This document shows, piece after piece, positions 13,694-60,115 of a stretch of 64,000 bases of DNA. Under the pieces are notes generated by a model. That model was not told where the DNA came from, ran no database searches, and saw nothing but the letters and a program-made list of their open reading frames with translations. Origin of the DNA: Acidobacteriota bacterium (GTDB lineage Bacteria > Acidobacteriota > Terriglobia > Terriglobales > Acidobacteriaceae); assembly GCA_003225005.1 (NCBI GenBank), contig QIAN01000065.1, forward strand, positions 1 through 64,000. Reading direction: 5' to 3'. A program made the translations under genes and the position numbers. Every line of letters starts with the position of its first letter. The stretch's first letter is position 1.

Positions 13694-14932
13694 CTATTCA
13701 TAGCGCAGCGCTTCGATCGGATCTAACCTCGCGGCCTTGATGGCAGGAAGCATTCCGCTAATCATCCCCACGAAACTCAAGATCGCAGTCGACCAAATCA
13801 GTGTGGCCGTGTCGATGTACAGGTGAATGTCACCTTCGCTGGCGTTTTCTTCAAATGCGCTCCACAGCGTCAAAGAGCCGACTGACCAGGAAACAAGATA
13901 GGCCAGTATCACTCCCAACAGCCCGCCTAGAGCGGTAATCACCAGTGCTTCCGTCAGAAACTGGAACAGAATATGCCAGCGATGCGCGCCCAAAGCCTTC
14001 TCCACGCCGATCTCGCGCGTGCGCTGCGTTACCGAGACCAGCATGATGTTCATCAGTCCCACGCCGCCGATCCCGAGCGTGAGCAGGCCGATAAATCCCA
14101 GCAGGATCTTGATCCCCGTGCTAATGACCTGCAAATCCATCAGATCCGCGAAAACGTCGAAGACGAAAACGCCGCGCTTATCTTTGGGATCGAAATTATG
14201 GTGGAAGGCCATGGAATCGCGCACCGCCTTAACTACCTTCGCATGATCGCCTTCGTATTCCATCACGACTGCAGTCAGGTGATGGGTGTTGGCCAGATCG
14301 CTCATCGCGGAGAAGGGGACATAGACGTGCTCGTTCATGTTGTCGTCCCCGTTTTGCACCTGGTGTTTGAGCACTCCCACGACTTGGTAGGAAATCCCGC
14401 TCACGCGAATCTCCTGGCCGATGGCGTTCAGGCCGGAGAAGAGTTTTTTCTTCGCGTCGGACCCAATCACCGCGACCCGAGTGTGAGTGAAGTCGTCAGC
14501 TTCGCTGAAAAAACTACCTTCTGTGATGTCCATGCGGCGCATGCGTCCGTAGGCAGCGTAAACGCCGCTGACGGCATACGTGGCGCTGCGGGTGCCGAAG
14601 GCCACGAGACACTGCTTGGCAACCTCCGGCGAAACGTGCTTCAGCAGCGGAACTTCTGCGTGGATGTAGTCGAGATCTTTGACCGTCAGGCGGACCTGGG
14701 TTCCGGCCTTCGTACCGCCAGCTTGTAGCTCAGTACGGCCGGGGAAAATAAAAACTAAATTCGTGCCGAAGGAACGGAACGCAGCCCAAAGTCCGCGCTC
14801 AAAACCGCTTCCGTAGGCGAGCAAAAGTACGACCGTGGCGATGCCCCACGCCATGCCCAGCATGGTGAGCAAGCTGCGACGCCGATTATGCCGCAGCGCG
14901 TTGTAGGCCTGTGTGGCGAGTGCAACCATCAT
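13694..14932 (-). CDS. MacB/FtsX-type ABC transporter permease
   Basis: A 412-residue permease with the MacB topology: one N-terminal helix (about 20-42), a large periplasmic MacB_PCD domain (about 45-270), and three helices in the C-terminal FtsX domain (about 283-405). NIMLVSVTQRTREIGVEKALGA and the C-terminal LDPIEALRYE are family signatures. There is no nucleotide-binding domain, so it needs a separate ATPase. MacB-type systems move substrates from periplasm outward by mechanotransmission. It lies just downstream of a second permease of the same kind, which suggests a heterodimer. No ATPase or adaptor gene is next to it. Confidence 0.9.
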   Translation of the reverse strand: MMVALATQAYNALRHNRRRSLLTMLGMAWGIATVVLLLAYGSGFERGLWAAFRSFGTNLVFIFPGRTELQAGGTKAGTQVRLTVKDLDYIHAEVPLLKHVSPEVAKQCLVAFGTRSATYAVSGVYAAYGRMRRMDITEGSFFSEADDFTHTRVAVIGSDAKKKLFSGLNAIGQEIRVSGISYQVVGVLKHQVQNGDDNMNEHVYVPFSAMSDLANTHHLTAVVMEYEGDHAKVVKAVRDSMAFHHNFDPKDKRGVFVFDVFADLMDLQVISTGIKILLGFIGLLTLGIGGVGLMNIMLVSVTQRTREIGVEKALGAHRWHILFQFLTEALVITALGGLLGVILAYLVSWSVGSLTLWSAFEENASEGDIHLYIDTATLIWSTAILSFVGMISGMLPAIKAARLDPIEALRYE

Positions 14933-15040: not shown

Positions 15041-16288
15041 TCACTCCTGCCGCAAGGCCTCCACCGGAGGCAGCAACGCCGCCTTCCGCGCTGGATACAG
15101 CCCAGCGGCAATGCCGGCGACGGCCAGCGAGACGATTGCCGCGAACGCTGAGGCTGGAATAATGCGCGGAGTATCAAAGCCCTCAGGCGCCGGCAACATG
15201 GCCAGCAGCGTGACAAAGCCGGTTGCGATCGCCAGCCCAATGCCTCCGCTGAACGCGGTCAGAAAAGCTCCCTCGATAAAGAACTGGGTCAAGATCGCAC
15301 GGTAAGTCGCGCCCAGTGCCTTGCGCAAGCCGATTTCTTTCGTGCGCTCGGTCACTGAGACCAGCATGATATTGATAATTCCGATAGCGCCCAGTCCGAG
15401 AGTCACGACGCCCACAACACCGAGAAACCAATCCATGGCGTCGAAAATCTTGCCCACGCGCTGCATGTTTTCGATCGTGTCCCAGTCTTCGAAGGCGTCT
15501 TCGAGCCTGGGATCGAAGCCGTGGCGCCGCGCCAGGACCTGGTGAATCTCGCTTTTGGCTTCTGTATGGAGCCCCCTGCTGATCGGCTGGTAATTAATAA
15601 ACGAAATCGCATCCTCAGAATTCGCTTTGATCAGCGGAAACAGATTCCGCATGGTCTCAATCGGGATGAAGATGCGCGAGTTCGTCCCGTTATTGCCGTC
15701 CCGGCCCACCTTGGCGACCACGCCGATCACATCAAAACTCACCCCATTCAGCAGGATGGTTGACCCCACCGCCGGCCGCCCGGGAAACATATTCTTGAGC
15801 AGCTCCCATCCCACAATGGCCACGCGGCGGCGTTCACTGTTGTCCTCATCATTGAACCAGCGGCCTGGTTCCACCGGCACATTGCGAATCCGGTTGTAGT
15901 CCGAGGCAACTCCGAAGATCTGTCCATTGGTTGATCCATAATCGCTAACCGCGCGTATGTCTTCGCGGTTGAGAACGGGCGACAATGCGCCGACAAATTT
16001 GGCCTCGGCCCGCACCGCCAAGTAGTCTTGGTAAGTGAAATAGTATGTCTGCCCCGATTGCGTGCTGCCCGCGACTGCAGGGATGCGCCCGGGAAACATG
16101 AACATGATGTTTTGTCCGAGCGTGGCAAGCTGCTTTTCCTGGCCGCTGCGGAATCCTTCTCCCAAGCCCACCAGCAGCAGAAGTGAGCCCACCCCCCAGG
16201 CAATTCCGAACATGGTGAGGAACGAGCGCAGCTTATGCGCCCACAGAGTGGACAACGACTGCCGGACAATGTCGAGGAGCATTCGCAT
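15041..16288 (-). CDS. MacB/FtsX-type ABC transporter permease
   Basis: A 415-residue permease of the same architecture as its downstream neighbour: TM1 about 18-40, periplasmic domain to about 280, then three helices. Signatures include NIMLVSVTERTKEIGLRKALGA and the C-terminal PPVEALRQE. The two adjacent permeases differ clearly in sequence, so they are not a recent duplication. With no ATPase domain it must use a separate LolD/MacB-like ATPase, which is not in the window. An M1-peptidase-like gene lies 271 bases upstream on the same strand. Confidence 0.9.
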   Translation of the reverse strand: MRMLLDIVRQSLSTLWAHKLRSFLTMFGIAWGVGSLLLLVGLGEGFRSGQEKQLATLGQNIMFMFPGRIPAVAGSTQSGQTYYFTYQDYLAVRAEAKFVGALSPVLNREDIRAVSDYGSTNGQIFGVASDYNRIRNVPVEPGRWFNDEDNSERRRVAIVGWELLKNMFPGRPAVGSTILLNGVSFDVIGVVAKVGRDGNNGTNSRIFIPIETMRNLFPLIKANSEDAISFINYQPISRGLHTEAKSEIHQVLARRHGFDPRLEDAFEDWDTIENMQRVGKIFDAMDWFLGVVGVVTLGLGAIGIINIMLVSVTERTKEIGLRKALGATYRAILTQFFIEGAFLTAFSGGIGLAIATGFVTLLAMLPAPEGFDTPRIIPASAFAAIVSLAVAGIAAGLYPARKAALLPPVEALRQE

Positions 16289-18905: not shown

Positions 18906-20126
18906 CTAGCGGTTTGTACGGCGCCTCAGCCTCAGCAGGGACAGAATGATCTCTGCCGCGCCGTCCGCCGGGTGTAACCCCGCAGTATCCCCGTTCCGCG
19001 GCGCGCGCAACCGCGCTTTCACTCGGGCCAGCCCGTTCAACATGCGTTCCCGTGGCGGACCATCGGGCAAGATCTCATTCAATCTCCCAACAACGTTCTC
19101 GGTTGTGAAGTCCCGCTGCACCAGTTCGGGAACAATCTCCTCCCCAGCAATCAAGTTGACCATGGCAAAATGCGGCACTTTAATCCTCGACCTGCCCAAG
19201 AGATAAGTCAAAGGCGTAACCCGGTAAACCATCACAAACGGCGTGGACATCATGGCCGCTTCCACGGTCGCTGTCCCGCTGGCAATAATGCCCGCCCGCG
19301 AATGCCACAGCGCCGGCAACGCCTCATGCACAAGATGAATTGCAGGGAGCCCGGCTACGAGAGCCCGCAGAAGATCCATATCGAGCGTCGGCGCGATGGG
19401 AAGGAGGAATTCATAACCAGTGCCCAGTGCCCCAGCCGATTCCAGGATCGTGGGCAGGTTTATCCGCACTTCCTTCACCCGGCTGCCCGGCATGAGAGTA
19501 ATCCACTGCTTCGCCCAGTCGAGTCTATGTTGCAAAGCATAGTCCCCCCGATCAATCGGTGGATCAGGCAACTCCGCCAGCGGATGCCCCACAAAGGTAG
19601 CGTCCACTCCCCGCTCGTGATAGAACTTCTGTTCAAACGGAAATATAACCAGCACCTTGTCGACGTAATCGCGCAGCAGCCGCACCCGTCCCTGACGCCA
19701 GGCCCAGAACTGAGGCGCGACGTAATAGACCACCGGAACATCGCGCTTCTTCATCTCCCGGGCCACGCGCCAGTTAAACGCCGGCGAATCAATCACGACG
19801 GCGACATCAGGTTTTCGCTTGTCGGCTTCGAAGATCAGCTTGCGGAAGAGTCCATAGATTTTCGGCAATTGGCTAAGAATTTCGGTGATGCCGACCACAG
19901 CGAGGTCTTTAGCGTCGACCACAGTCTCGCACCCCGCAGCTCGCATCTGCTCTCCGCCCACGCCGAAGAACTCAAGCGCTAGTGCTCGGGTGGGGGCAGC
20001 CGCCCCCGGCTGTCCGGCGGAGCAAAACTCGGCAGACCTCCGCTCGTCCGCCCGCCGCAAAGCTTCAATAAGCTCTGCCCCATACATTTCCCCGGACGCT
20101 TCGCCGGCCGAGATCAGAATGCGCAC
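18906..20126 (-). CDS. lpxB: Lipid-A-disaccharide synthase with in-frame insert
   Basis: A 406-residue GT19 enzyme that joins UDP-2,3-diacylglucosamine to lipid X to form the lipid A disaccharide at the inner membrane. The N-terminus (MRILISAGEASGEMYGAELI) and later blocks VIDSPAFNWRVA, FPFEQKFY, LMPGSRVKEV and GTATVEAAM are LpxB signatures. Residues about 29-48 are an insertion not found in typical LpxB, whose chain passes directly from the first helix to the FFGVGG strand; its DNA is GC-rich and palindromic (separate entry). The rest of the chain, including the C-terminal catalytic half, is intact, so the enzyme is expected to work. The MsbA-like exporter lies upstream on the same strand, in keeping with LPS assembly. 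Confidence 0.93.
   Translation of the reverse strand: MRILISAGEASGEMYGAELIEALRRADERRSAEFCSAGQPGAAAPTRALALEFFGVGGEQMRAAGCETVVDAKDLAVVGITEILSQLPKIYGLFRKLIFEADKRKPDVAVVIDSPAFNWRVAREMKKRDVPVVYYVAPQFWAWRQGRVRLLRDYVDKVLVIFPFEQKFYHERGVDATFVGHPLAELPDPPIDRGDYALQHRLDWAKQWITLMPGSRVKEVRINLPTILESAGALGTGYEFLLPIAPTLDMDLLRALVAGLPAIHLVHEALPALWHSRAGIIASGTATVEAAMMSTPFVMVYRVTPLTYLLGRSRIKVPHFAMVNLIAGEEIVPELVQRDFTTENVVGRLNEILPDGPPRERMLNGLARVKARLRAPRNGDTAGLHPADGAAEIILSLLRLRRRTNR
19983..20042. repeat. GC-rich palindromic insert within lpxB
   Basis: About 60 bases, encoding the extra LpxB residues around SAGQPGAAAPTRA. On the plus strand it contains GGGGGC-AGCC-GCCCCC and the overlapping CAGCCG-CCCC-CGGCTG, two mutually exclusive hairpins. 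A related sequence is inserted in the endonuclease III-like gene (45825-45929). In the gene sense, GGAcAGCCgGGGGCGGC here matches GGAgAGCCcGGGGCGGC there (15 of 17 bases). Confidence 0.55.
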
Positions 20127-45701: not shown

Positions 45702-46553
45702 TTAACCATGCGGGAGGAAACTTCGTAAAGGGCACTCGTCACATTGAGCCTGTGATTTTCGGCAATAATTCTTGCCTACGCCGACGATCAGACCATGCAT
45801 CTCGTTGTAAACCTGCGCCACAGTCGTGCGCCGGCTGGTGCTCATGCGAGATGGAGGGTGGCCGGCGCCTCCGACGCTTGGCCGGTGTGCCGCCCCGGGC
45901 TCTCCAGACTTTGCGGTCAGGGCTTCCGCGGCGAGGGGATTTAATGCCCGTTCGAATAGTTGGCGGATGTCTTCATAGTCGGTTTTTTCTGGCAGAATGC
46001 CGTGCCGATCGAGAATGCGCCGGGTGTAGGCATCCACCACGAAAACAGGGTAATTTCCTGCATAGAGAAGAATGGAATCCGCAGTCTCGGGCCCTACGCC
46101 GTTCAGGCTCAGCAATTCCTGGCGGAGTTTTGGGGTAGGTTGCGAGAACAATTTGCTAAGTGATCCGCCGTAATGCTGATCTAAGAAGGCTACAAACGTC
46201 TTTAGTCGGCGAGCTTTCTGCCGAAAATACCCAGCGCAGTGAATTAGGCGTTCCAGCTCCGGCAGTGCCACTTGCCGAATTCCTTCCAGGTTAAGAAGAC
46301 GCGCTGAGCGAAGACCCGACAGAGCGCTTTCTACGTTGGTCCACGCCGTATTCTGCGTTAGATAAGCTCCGACAATCACCTCGAAACGGGTGCGTGCGGG
46401 CCACCAATGCTGGCATCCCCAGGTGGAAAACAGTATCCGGTAGTAGGCCTGAATCTGCTTTTCTTTTCTACCAATCGGCACGGCAAGAAGTCCCTCAGGT
46501 TGAGTGTAACTCTCTCCCCCAGCATCGGCGGGAGCGACCGGGTCGATGCGCAA
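45702..46553 (-). CDS. Endonuclease III-like HhH-GPD protein with insert
   Basis: A 283-residue HhH-GPD glycosylase. The helix-hairpin-helix is LNGVGPETADS with E156 at the position of the endonuclease III lysine, and the catalytic Asp is D174 in VVDAYTRR. The loss of Lys suggests a monofunctional glycosylase without AP-lyase activity. The C-terminal iron-sulfur loop keeps three cysteines (C264, C271, C274) but the fourth is absent (CPLRSFLPHG ends the protein). Residues about 209-243 are an insert from a GC-rich repeat (separate entry). The TTG start is uncertain. Target base unknown. Confidence 0.8.
   Translation of the reverse strand: MRIDPVAPADAGGESYTQPEGLLAVPIGRKEKQIQAYYRILFSTWGCQHWWPARTRFEVIVGAYLTQNTAWTNVESALSGLRSARLLNLEGIRQVALPELERLIHCAGYFRQKARRLKTFVAFLDQHYGGSLSKLFSQPTPKLRQELLSLNGVGPETADSILLYAGNYPVFVVDAYTRRILDRHGILPEKTDYEDIRQLFERALNPLAAEALTAKSGEPGAAHRPSVGGAGHPPSRMSTSRRTTVAQVYNEMHGLIVGVGKNYCRKSQAQCDECPLRSFLPHG
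45825..45929. repeat. GC-rich repeat within endonuclease III-like gene
   Basis: About 105 bases encoding the extra segment with SGEPGAAHRPSVGG and GGAGHPPSRM, between LNPLAAEA and AQVYNEMHG, which are contiguous in normal family members. In the gene sense GGAgAGCCcGGGGCGGC closely matches the insert in lpxB, and the encoded peptides (SGEPGAA and SAGQPGAA) are alike. Confidence 0.55.
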
Positions 46554-56553: not shown

Positions 56554-57810
56554 CTATTCGTATCGCAATGCCTCGATCGGATTCAGCTTGGCCGCCTTTA
56601 GTGCCGGGAAGAATCCGGAAATGATGCCTACGAGCGAAAGAATCGCAAAGGAAACAGTCATCACGCTCGCCGAGGCATGCAGGAAAATGGCTCCTTCGTG
56701 ATTCGCCGTCTTATAGAACTCGTCATACAGCGGCATGGGCGGGATCGCCCATGTGAGCAGCACCGCTACCGCCATACCGATCAATCCTCCGGCGAAGGTT
56801 AAAACCAGCGCTTCCAACAGAAACTGCACAAGAATGTGCCGCGGACGTGCTCCCAGAGCTTTACGTAGTCCAATCTCACGCGTACGTTCGGTGACCGAGA
56901 CCAGCATGATATTCATCACGCCAACGCCGCCCACGGCCAAGGTTACGGCCCCAATCAATCCGAGCACCGCCTGCAGGCCTAATGAGAAGCGGTTAATCAT
57001 GGCCCTGTCTTCGATCGTGTCCCATTCCGGAGTGGCTTTGTCGTCCTTGGGATCGAAGTGGTGCCGCCTTGCAATTACCTCGCGCACCGCTGCCAAAGAT
57101 TGTTTGTTCAATTCTGCCGCTGTGGGTTGGAAGATGATCTCGTCCGGATCACGAAGATTTTTCAGGTCGCGCATGAGTCCGAAGGGAATGAAGCCGTTGT
57201 CATTGTCCGGGCCGTTGTACATCGAGTCCTGGATTTTGTTGCGCATGGTGCCAATGACCTCGAAATCCAGTCCGCCGATGCTTACGTGCTGACCCACTCC
57301 GGGCGCGCCTTGAAATATTTTTTTGGCCGCCTCATAACCGAGGATCACAACGCGCCGGCGGTCGGCGAAGTCTCCCTCGTCAAAATAGCGGCCATCTTCG
57401 AGCGTGAGTTTGCGCATTTGCCCGTAGGGCATTTCCACGCCGCGCACCTGGATCGTGACCACACGTGTGCCCAGCTTGAACCCAAAATCTCGGTCGATCT
57501 CCGCGCTTACCGCACGCACAATGGGAACTTCGTCGCGGATTGCCTCGACATCTTCGTATTCGTAATTGACCGTCTTGCCTGCGCGCTGCCCACCGGCCTG
57601 CATACTCGTCTGGCCCGGCCACAGCACGATCACATTGCTTCCCATGTTGAGGAAGGCATGGAGGACGCTACCGCCCAGCCCCTGCCCGTAGGCCAGGAGC
57701 AGCACTACCGATGCCAGTCCCCACACGATGCCCAGCATCGTGAGTGTCGAGCGCAGCCGGTCGCGCATCAACGCCTGCCAACCCTGCGAGATGAGTTCTT
57801 TCAGGAACAT
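56554..57810 (-). CDS. MacB/FtsX-type ABC permease
   Basis: About 418 residues from MFLKELISQGWQAL; a longer frame starts at 57894. TM1 is about 22-46, then a periplasmic MacB_PCD domain, then three helices from about 290. NIMLVSVTERTREIGLRKALGA and LNPIEALRYE are signatures. No ATPase domain. It is the last gene of a minus-strand set: adaptor, permease, GSGD-repeat protein, permease. Confidence 0.9.
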   Translation of the reverse strand: MFLKELISQGWQALMRDRLRSTLTMLGIVWGLASVVLLLAYGQGLGGSVLHAFLNMGSNVIVLWPGQTSMQAGGQRAGKTVNYEYEDVEAIRDEVPIVRAVSAEIDRDFGFKLGTRVVTIQVRGVEMPYGQMRKLTLEDGRYFDEGDFADRRRVVILGYEAAKKIFQGAPGVGQHVSIGGLDFEVIGTMRNKIQDSMYNGPDNDNGFIPFGLMRDLKNLRDPDEIIFQPTAAELNKQSLAAVREVIARRHHFDPKDDKATPEWDTIEDRAMINRFSLGLQAVLGLIGAVTLAVGGVGVMNIMLVSVTERTREIGLRKALGARPRHILVQFLLEALVLTFAGGLIGMAVAVLLTWAIPPMPLYDEFYKTANHEGAIFLHASASVMTVSFAILSLVGIISGFFPALKAAKLNPIEALRYE

Positions 57811-58863: not shown

Positions 58864-60115
58864 ATCGTAGAGACTCCACAGGTGTCATTTCTGCGGCACG
58901 CTGGGCTGGATACACCCCCGCGGTTACCGTAATCAAAGAAAGCGTCAGAATCGAAACCACGATCGAAATCGGAGAAATAATCGGATGCGGCACGAAATCG
59001 GGTAAAGGCAGAGCACCCATGGCGATACAAGTCCCTATTCCGAAGCTGAGGCCAAGAAGCCCGCTGACCACGGTCAACATCGCGGACTCCGCGAAAAACT
59101 GGCGCACAATGTCTCGCCGGGTCGCGCCAATCGCTTTGCGCGTGCCAATCTCCCGCGTGCGTTCGGTCACCGACACCAGCATGATGTTCATGACGCCGAT
59201 TCCTCCCAGGCAAAGCGTGACCACGGCTACGCAGCCAAAAAAAATGGTCACCACGCCGAAGATCTTCTCCAGCATCTTGGCGCCGTTCATGGTGTCCCAG
59301 ATGAAAACCGCATCCTTGTCGATGGCGTCGAAGTGATGCACGCGCGCCAGCGCTCTGCGAACCTGCAGAACCGCCGCTTCGTGATCTTCCGGGTCACCGA
59401 CTTCAAAAACAATGTCATCAAGCCACCCACGCGTGATTCCGGCTCCAGGCTTGATGGGCGGAGGGAAATCCCGCGACACTGCTGAGTACGGAGCAAAAAG
59501 ATAGTCGTTATCCGGCCCGCTATAGTTCGAGTTCTGCTTCTTTTCCTGCAAAACTCCGACGACGGTATAAGGCACGCTCTTGACCAGTACTGCCGCGCCG
59601 ACGGCCGGTTGTCCGGGGAACAATTGGCGATGGGCTTTCGATCCCAACACCAGGACGCGCCGGCCTTCGCGCTCGTCATCATCTGTAATCAGGCGGCCTT
59701 CCGCCAGCAGCAACGAACGGAAATCCTGATACGAAGGCCACATCCCGACCACGCCGCGACTCGCCGAATTGAACTGGCTTACTTCCGGAATACTTCGACG
59801 CAACTCCGGGCTGACGTTCTTCACGAGATAACATTCGTTCTGGATCAGGTGAGCATCATCAACGTTGAGCTGGACCTCCCGTCCCGCTGCGCGTCCGCCA
59901 ACCTGCGAACTGGTGCGCCCTCCCCAAACGATCACGAGGTCCTTACCCAGAGTCTGCATGTGCTTTTTCTGGTCCACGCTGAAACCAAGCCCCAGCCCTA
60001 CCAGAAGAATTACCGATGCGATTCCCCACACGATGCCGAACATCGTGAGGAACGTGCGCATCTTGTGAGCGCGGAACGTAGCGAACGCCTGGCGCAGGAT
60101 TTCGAGAACAGTCAT
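58856..60115 (-). CDS. MacB/FtsX-type ABC permease
   Basis: 419 residues; TM1 about 18-42, periplasmic MacB_PCD domain to about 280, then three helices. NIMLVSVTERTREIGTRKAIGA and MTPVESLRYE are signatures. No ATPase domain. The gene directly follows the periplasmic adaptor and overlaps the GSGD-repeat gene. The two permeases of this operon are distinct enough to be a heterodimer. Confidence 0.9.
   Translation of the reverse strand: MTVLEILRQAFATFRAHKMRTFLTMFGIVWGIASVILLVGLGLGFSVDQKKHMQTLGKDLVIVWGGRTSSQVGGRAAGREVQLNVDDAHLIQNECYLVKNVSPELRRSIPEVSQFNSASRGVVGMWPSYQDFRSLLLAEGRLITDDDEREGRRVLVLGSKAHRQLFPGQPAVGAAVLVKSVPYTVVGVLQEKKQNSNYSGPDNDYLFAPYSAVSRDFPPPIKPGAGITRGWLDDIVFEVGDPEDHEAAVLQVRRALARVHHFDAIDKDAVFIWDTMNGAKMLEKIFGVVTIFFGCVAVVTLCLGGIGVMNIMLVSVTERTREIGTRKAIGATRRDIVRQFFAESAMLTVVSGLLGLSFGIGTCIAMGALPLPDFVPHPIISPISIVVSILTLSLITVTAGVYPAQRAAEMTPVESLRYE

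Follow-up and report, generated by a model that had tools for sequence, protein, structure and literature searches.

Do an endonuclease III-like gene and lpxB, both lying on the 64,000-nucleotide stretch of DNA analysed here (the window), carry one and the same mobile repeat? A preliminary description of the window had proposed that they do, pointing to a 17-base word that agrees at 15 positions and to peptides that look alike. Our results make it very probable that two different things had been read as one: an old, disordered linker in the endonuclease III-like (Nth-like) protein, and a real REP-like repeat in lpxB.

The endonuclease III-like gene and its 17-base word

The gene that raised the question (45702..46553, minus strand) encodes an endonuclease III-like or MagIII-like HhH-GPD DNA glycosylase of 283 aa, with a TTG start as listed (Pfam HhH-GPD, E 2.3e-14). 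Its top NCBIfam match was 3-methyladenine DNA glycosylase NF010494 (103.6 bits, below the 192-bit cut-off). The C-terminal cysteine motif C-x6-C-x2-C (C264, C271, C274) was invariant in 21 aligned sequences, and on inspection of this motif no fourth cysteine was found in the window's protein; endonuclease III, by comparison, has four.

We compared the length of the suspected insert among relatives, using the spacing between a conserved tyrosine and a YNE/FNE/LQE motif. From 35 matches within the genus, 30 same-genus loci (the window's own plus 29) were aligned, and 8 of the 15 matches from outside the genus were fetched (L420-L427). The spacing was 56 aa in the window's Nth-like protein, 52-61 aa (median 55, from the alignment) in the 29 other same-genus loci, and 18 aa, counted by eye, in 8/8 outside homologues, which makes the stretch ~38 residues longer than in every out-of-genus homologue fetched. 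The proposal of an insert thus holds in so far as the extra residues are real relative to the outside homologues, but the stretch is present in 30/30 same-genus loci aligned, and no empty site was found among these congeners. As all same-genus loci aligned have the linker and none of the outside homologues fetched does, its gain probably predates the radiation of the genus, and the alignments point to the ~38-aa insertion being an old property of the genus and not a recent repeat.

The linker itself (45816..45932, approximate limits, minus strand) is predicted to be disordered and holds no recognisable repeat copy; residues 214-236 of the Nth-like protein have an AlphaFold2 pLDDT below 50. It ends in a conserved tail, GHPPSRMS in the window (45840..45869, minus strand), which follows the pattern H.PS.[MI]S in 29/29 congeners aligned. 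HPPS occurs in 23/29 and GAAHPPS in 13/29 of these, where the window reads GAGHPPSRMS, and residues H232, P234, S235, M237 and S238 were invariant in 21 sequences. The stretch is most probably a linker joining the HhH-GPD catalytic core to the C-terminal cysteine-bearing segment; predicted to be disordered, it probably serves as a flexible tether. A structured RNA in this stretch was also considered and rejected (z-score 0.71).

What had suggested a common origin is the word GGAGAGCCCGGGGCGGC (45889..45905, minus strand), which resembles the repeat core. The reported count is correct: the word is identical at 15 of 17 bases to lpxB positions 19999-20015 (also minus strand). Words as close to the lpxB 17-mer occurred on average 0.02 times in shuffled windows, and the word in Nth is therefore nominally unusual. 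Across the genome, 22 words had at most two mismatches to the lpxB 17-mer, against 3 for a reversed control; 12 of these are element copies by our covariance model of the repeat (E<=1), and the other 10, including the one in Nth, are not. No element surrounds the word in Nth. Past the 17 bases the TGTCC second arm is missing, so that the palindromic core is incomplete, and neither a first hairpin nor a CCAC tag is found.

We then scored the Nth genes with the covariance model. The window's Nth gene reached at best 2.4 bits (E 1.2), as against 58.4 bits (E 5.1e-10) for lpxB, and no match was found inside any of the 30 same-genus Nth genes at E<=0.1; a lone 19-bit match among the Nth loci falls outside the gene (L047:3514-3554). 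The 15/17 bases and the similar peptides (SGEPGAA and SAGQPGAA) would fit an in-frame insertion of the lpxB repeat in Nth, yet we find this reading hardly credible: the low score, the missing hairpin, arm and tag, the lack of a model match at E<=0.1 inside any of the 30 genes and the near-constant length of the linker in 30/30 loci all speak against a repeat copy. Aligned to full repeats, the Nth stretch is clearly unrelated, and its kinship with the lpxB insert, as first described, fails because the linker occurs in all 30 loci at nearly constant length and has no similarity to the full repeat.

We also compared the linkers with peptide profiles built from the element in six frames. In the AGQPGAAVP frame, the window's linker scored 4.8 bits (shuffle p 0.005 and 0.01 in two runs; ~0.03-0.06 after allowing for six frames), and 2/30 Nth linkers, the window's own and 1 of the 29 others, reached p<=0.05. 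One other frame matched 9-10/30 linkers at p<=0.05 (best 5.2 bits, 0/200 shuffles); the four matches that were aligned in that frame depend on RTA, a tripeptide in the shared tail, and once the tail was taken away 1/30 was left. We read the peptide-profile matches as a chance likeness within a loose Gly/Ala/Pro stretch.

Two further histories of the linker can be weighed on these data. A fragment of the element core might have been copied into the window's linker, by short conversion or a microhomology-mediated patch, leaving its length unchanged; the 4.8-bit score with its low shuffle p in the AGQPGAAVP frame would fit, as would the fact that, among the 30 Nth loci, only this species has the matching bases. 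Set against a match of just 17 bases in a fast-changing stretch, and against the 10/22 equally good genome words that lie outside model-recognised elements, we consider such copying quite unlikely. The genus-wide linker could instead be an ancient repeat insertion, domesticated beyond recognition. It is extra relative to 8/8 outside homologues fetched, and its HPPSAM..AK tail, judged by eye, slightly resembles the element's QPPSAV..AK frame; but the profile of that frame matched 3/30 linkers at shuffle p<=0.05 (best 3.4 bits) and the repeat model found nothing in the 30 Nth genes, which leaves this origin very improbable. A recognisable fossil repeat in the genus-wide linker was ruled out by the element peptide profiles. 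Most likely, the 17-base likeness arose from GC-rich codons in a Gly/Ala/Pro stretch under little constraint. More generally, when GC-rich coding loops resemble each other over 17 bases, this is no evidence for a shared element, and it is comparison with relatives that decides.

The REP-like element in lpxB

The lpxB gene (18906..20126, minus strand) encodes lipid-A-disaccharide synthase (406 aa, GTG start; Pfam LpxB, E 3.1e-83; TIGR00215 above its cut-off). It carries in frame a REP-like two-hairpin element of ~50 bp (19988..20037, minus strand), which is translated as SAEFCSAGQPGAAAPTR and is the copy that scored 58.4 bits. Hairpin 1 of this copy, GCCGAG-TTTT-GCTCCGC (20017..20033, minus strand), is imperfect, and hairpin 2 (19994..20015, minus strand) contains the palindromic core GGACAGCCGGGGGCGGCTGCCC. 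At the foot of hairpin 2 stands CCAC (19990..19993, minus strand), which reads as a GTGG tag on the other strand, directly preceding the stem, and is found in 49/54 copies. No known Rfam family matched the window at gathering scores. The window also holds a 135-bp stretch in four diverged copies (13934-14068, 15257-15391, 56797-56931 and 59072-59206; 64-74% identity to the reference copy); these lie in minus-strand ORFs of 412-446 aa and probably represent paralogous proteins.

The covariance model was built from 54 of 59 extracted copies, leaving out five whose first hairpin was different or odd. The consensus consists of hairpin 1 (GCCGAGC-TTC-GCTCGGC), hairpin 2 (GGACAGCCGAGGGCGGCTGTCC) and a following CCACAT. 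Hairpin 1 covaries, with 41 cells showing two-sided pair changes against 12.9 in shuffled alignments (reached in 0/500 shuffles); counted as pairs with two-sided changes, the figures were 5 against 3.5 (reached in 43/500 shuffles). In each of the six frames, 48 to 54 of the 54 copies gave a stop-free translation of at least 15 aa. At several loci (L138, L173, L176, L192; L066, L341) the element forms head-to-head inverted pairs, ~100 bp apart or closer and with their GTGG tags pointing outward, a layout like that of REPINs. According to PMC6006769, REPs of the short type carry the tag GTAG or GTGG at 0-2 nt 5' of the hairpin, whose stem is 7-20 bp and whose loop is 2-5 nt long, and the element agrees with this definition in its GTGG tag, consensus stem (GGACAGCCG/CGGCTGTCC) and 4-nt loop; the window copy has one changed stem base.

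We compared lpxB among 30 genus loci, taken from 34 matches. The loop after the first helix measured 15 aa between anchors in 9/30 loci (empty) and 31-79 aa in 21/30. It carried the element in 20/30 at E<=0.01, two of them weakly (~24 bits); the long, degenerate insert of L067 gave no repeat-model match. Among the 20 filled loops the element lay in gene sense in 12, antisense in 5 and in both orientations in 3, and the sister loci L057 and L061 (branch 99/97) differ in its orientation. On the lpxB tree, in which L067 was hand-labelled 'anti', the distribution of filled and empty loops needs 6 changes (bootstrap 5-7), a count to be read with the weakness of the tree (6/27 inner branches starred); the starred branches force just one filled/empty change, at least three for 'same' and 2 for 'anti'. 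Residues 38-46 of LpxB, within the element loop, have a pLDDT below 50.

Spread across the genus and copies inside genes

The tagged element pattern was found in 37/37 genus genomes (1 to 167 copies each) and in 0/24 other relatives, with none for the reversed control. The covariance model agreed (37/37 and 0/24), and as 98 candidates were scored per genome, its high counts are lower bounds. The window's own genome holds at least 28 copies at E<=0.001 (150 of 6597 first-look candidates scored). The element is thus dispersed in the manner of REPs, with many scattered copies in its own genome and matches in every genus genome. Among the at least 80 loci listed with exact matches, the organisms were named Candidatus Sulfotelmatobacter, Acidobacteria, Acidobacteriaceae, Terriglobia and, once, Candidatus Acidiferrum; the element-bearing genus is probably Candidatus Sulfotelmatobacter. 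The palindromic core is also present in two IMG/VR viral contigs (L428, L429).

Of the 28 copies in the own genome, 13 were counted in coding frames, the other 15 being intergenic or unclear. For nine of the 13 a Pfam match spans the element or splits around it: lpxB, tgt, mnmE, mutS, nrdJ (class II ribonucleotide reductase), ubiD twice, a peptidyl-arginine deiminase-like gene and an ABC transporter. Four lie outside the Pfam match, in genes for a hydantoinase, a dihydrouridine synthase, a DsbH-like protein and a second ABC transporter, the last with the weakest coding signal (-0.09 and 0.13). A coding-compatible, mobile-looking repeat family, as the preliminary description had supposed, therefore does exist, in lpxB and in 12 further in-frame copies of the genome, but Nth is not a member. 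Nor does the family keep to one reading frame: in-gene copies of the own genome use all six frames, with 7/13 in the HVGTAA frame.

Copies inside genes were likewise found in relatives. In genome G026, where the context of 49 of 62 pattern copies was examined, 5/49 were clearly in genes (DsbH-like, M28 peptidase, MutS2, MetH, Lhr), in addition to its lpxB (L055). Searched in 25 genus genomes, mnmE carried the element in 10/22 anchored loci and tgt in 7/24 (24 anchored of 25 loci; the unanchored L334 also carries it). In-frame insertion into otherwise conserved genes is thus found in lpxB, tgt and mnmE, each with filled loops alongside empty or short ones. The DsbH-like genes of the window's genome (G000; L366) and of G026 (L260) both have the element in an identical frame, 219 aa from where the domain match begins, a position that could be either inherited or a shared landing site. 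One ubiD gene bears two copies ~600 bp apart in different frames (L363 and L374; G000:C386:74198-74247 and 73600-73649), and its Pfam UbiD and UbiD_N matches each fall in two stretches.

Other repeats were seen in the tgt loop between EVPW and SLFG (L325-L345). In other species, short tandem units arranged as inverted arrays (CAGTACTCAGTA.., GGCAACTGGCAACTGG.., TTTCCAGTTTCCAG..) and a palindrome that codes for IPRFARND (GATTCCTCGCTTCGCTCGGAATGACAA) sit in frame in this loop. Tentatively, and with slightly less than even confidence, we suggest that the tgt, mnmE and lpxB loops are shared landing sites, in which unrelated repeats (the two-hairpin element in both orientations, the IPRFARND palindrome and the inverted tandem arrays) settle in frame repeatedly. 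Were that so, essential enzymes would hold a rapidly changing record of the mobile repeats in the genome.

How the element spreads can be sketched in outline. Most likely it would be a non-autonomous, REP-like passenger moved in trans by an HuH (tyrosine) transposase, and copies within genes may survive selection only where they are in frame, free of stops and within a disordered loop; among the element-carrying proteins, disorder was modelled for LpxB. To the transposase step, taken by itself, we give about even odds. Y1_Tnp genes are present in 35/37 genus genomes. An element adjoined such a gene in 1/25 sampled loci, which by our own arithmetic is about background density, so that the mover is inferred, and a RAYT-like match lay near the element in 2/165 element loci (with a crude set of 7 query proteins). 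With filled and empty sites available among congeners, both the neutrality of the insertions and the enzyme that moves them become testable.

Comparison with known systems

The Nth-like gene shares its catalytic core with MagIII and endonuclease III-like HhH-GPD glycosylases. It differs from them in its genus-specific linker of ~38 aa, and from endonuclease III in having C-x6-C-x2-C only, with the fourth cysteine missing.

The element in lpxB has closer relatives in kind. As with the REPs described in the accessible parts of PMC3733652 and PMC6006769, it is a short hairpin with GTGG at its foot, dispersed, and in some places found as inverted pairs. The same parts of PMC3733652 describe REPs inside genes of several bacteria, many of them in repair genes, and copies here likewise stand in frame in genes, including those for repair and RNA modification. 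In contrast to REPs, the element consists of two adjoining hairpins and was found in a single acidobacterial genus, with no match in the 24 other relatives. For an acidobacterium, K. versatilis, the passages available from PMC3733652 mention one family of TIR repeats. No description of the two-hairpin family was found in the accessible portions of the open-access literature on acidobacterial repeats and REPs, and therefore it is, as far as we can tell, a previously undescribed family within a class already known, that of intragenic REPs and Rickettsia palindromic elements.

With the latter the likeness is one of behaviour only. Rickettsia palindromic elements, as the available text of PMC10969869 describes them, are in-frame palindromic repeats of ~150 bp in unrelated metabolic genes; the element here is also an in-frame palindromic insertion, but is ~50 bp long, belongs to another phylum and is read in all six frames. 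The finding of wider importance is that a REP-like element stands in frame within genes for tRNA modification, repair, ribonucleotide reductase and lipid A in a soil-bacterial genus far from Rickettsia.
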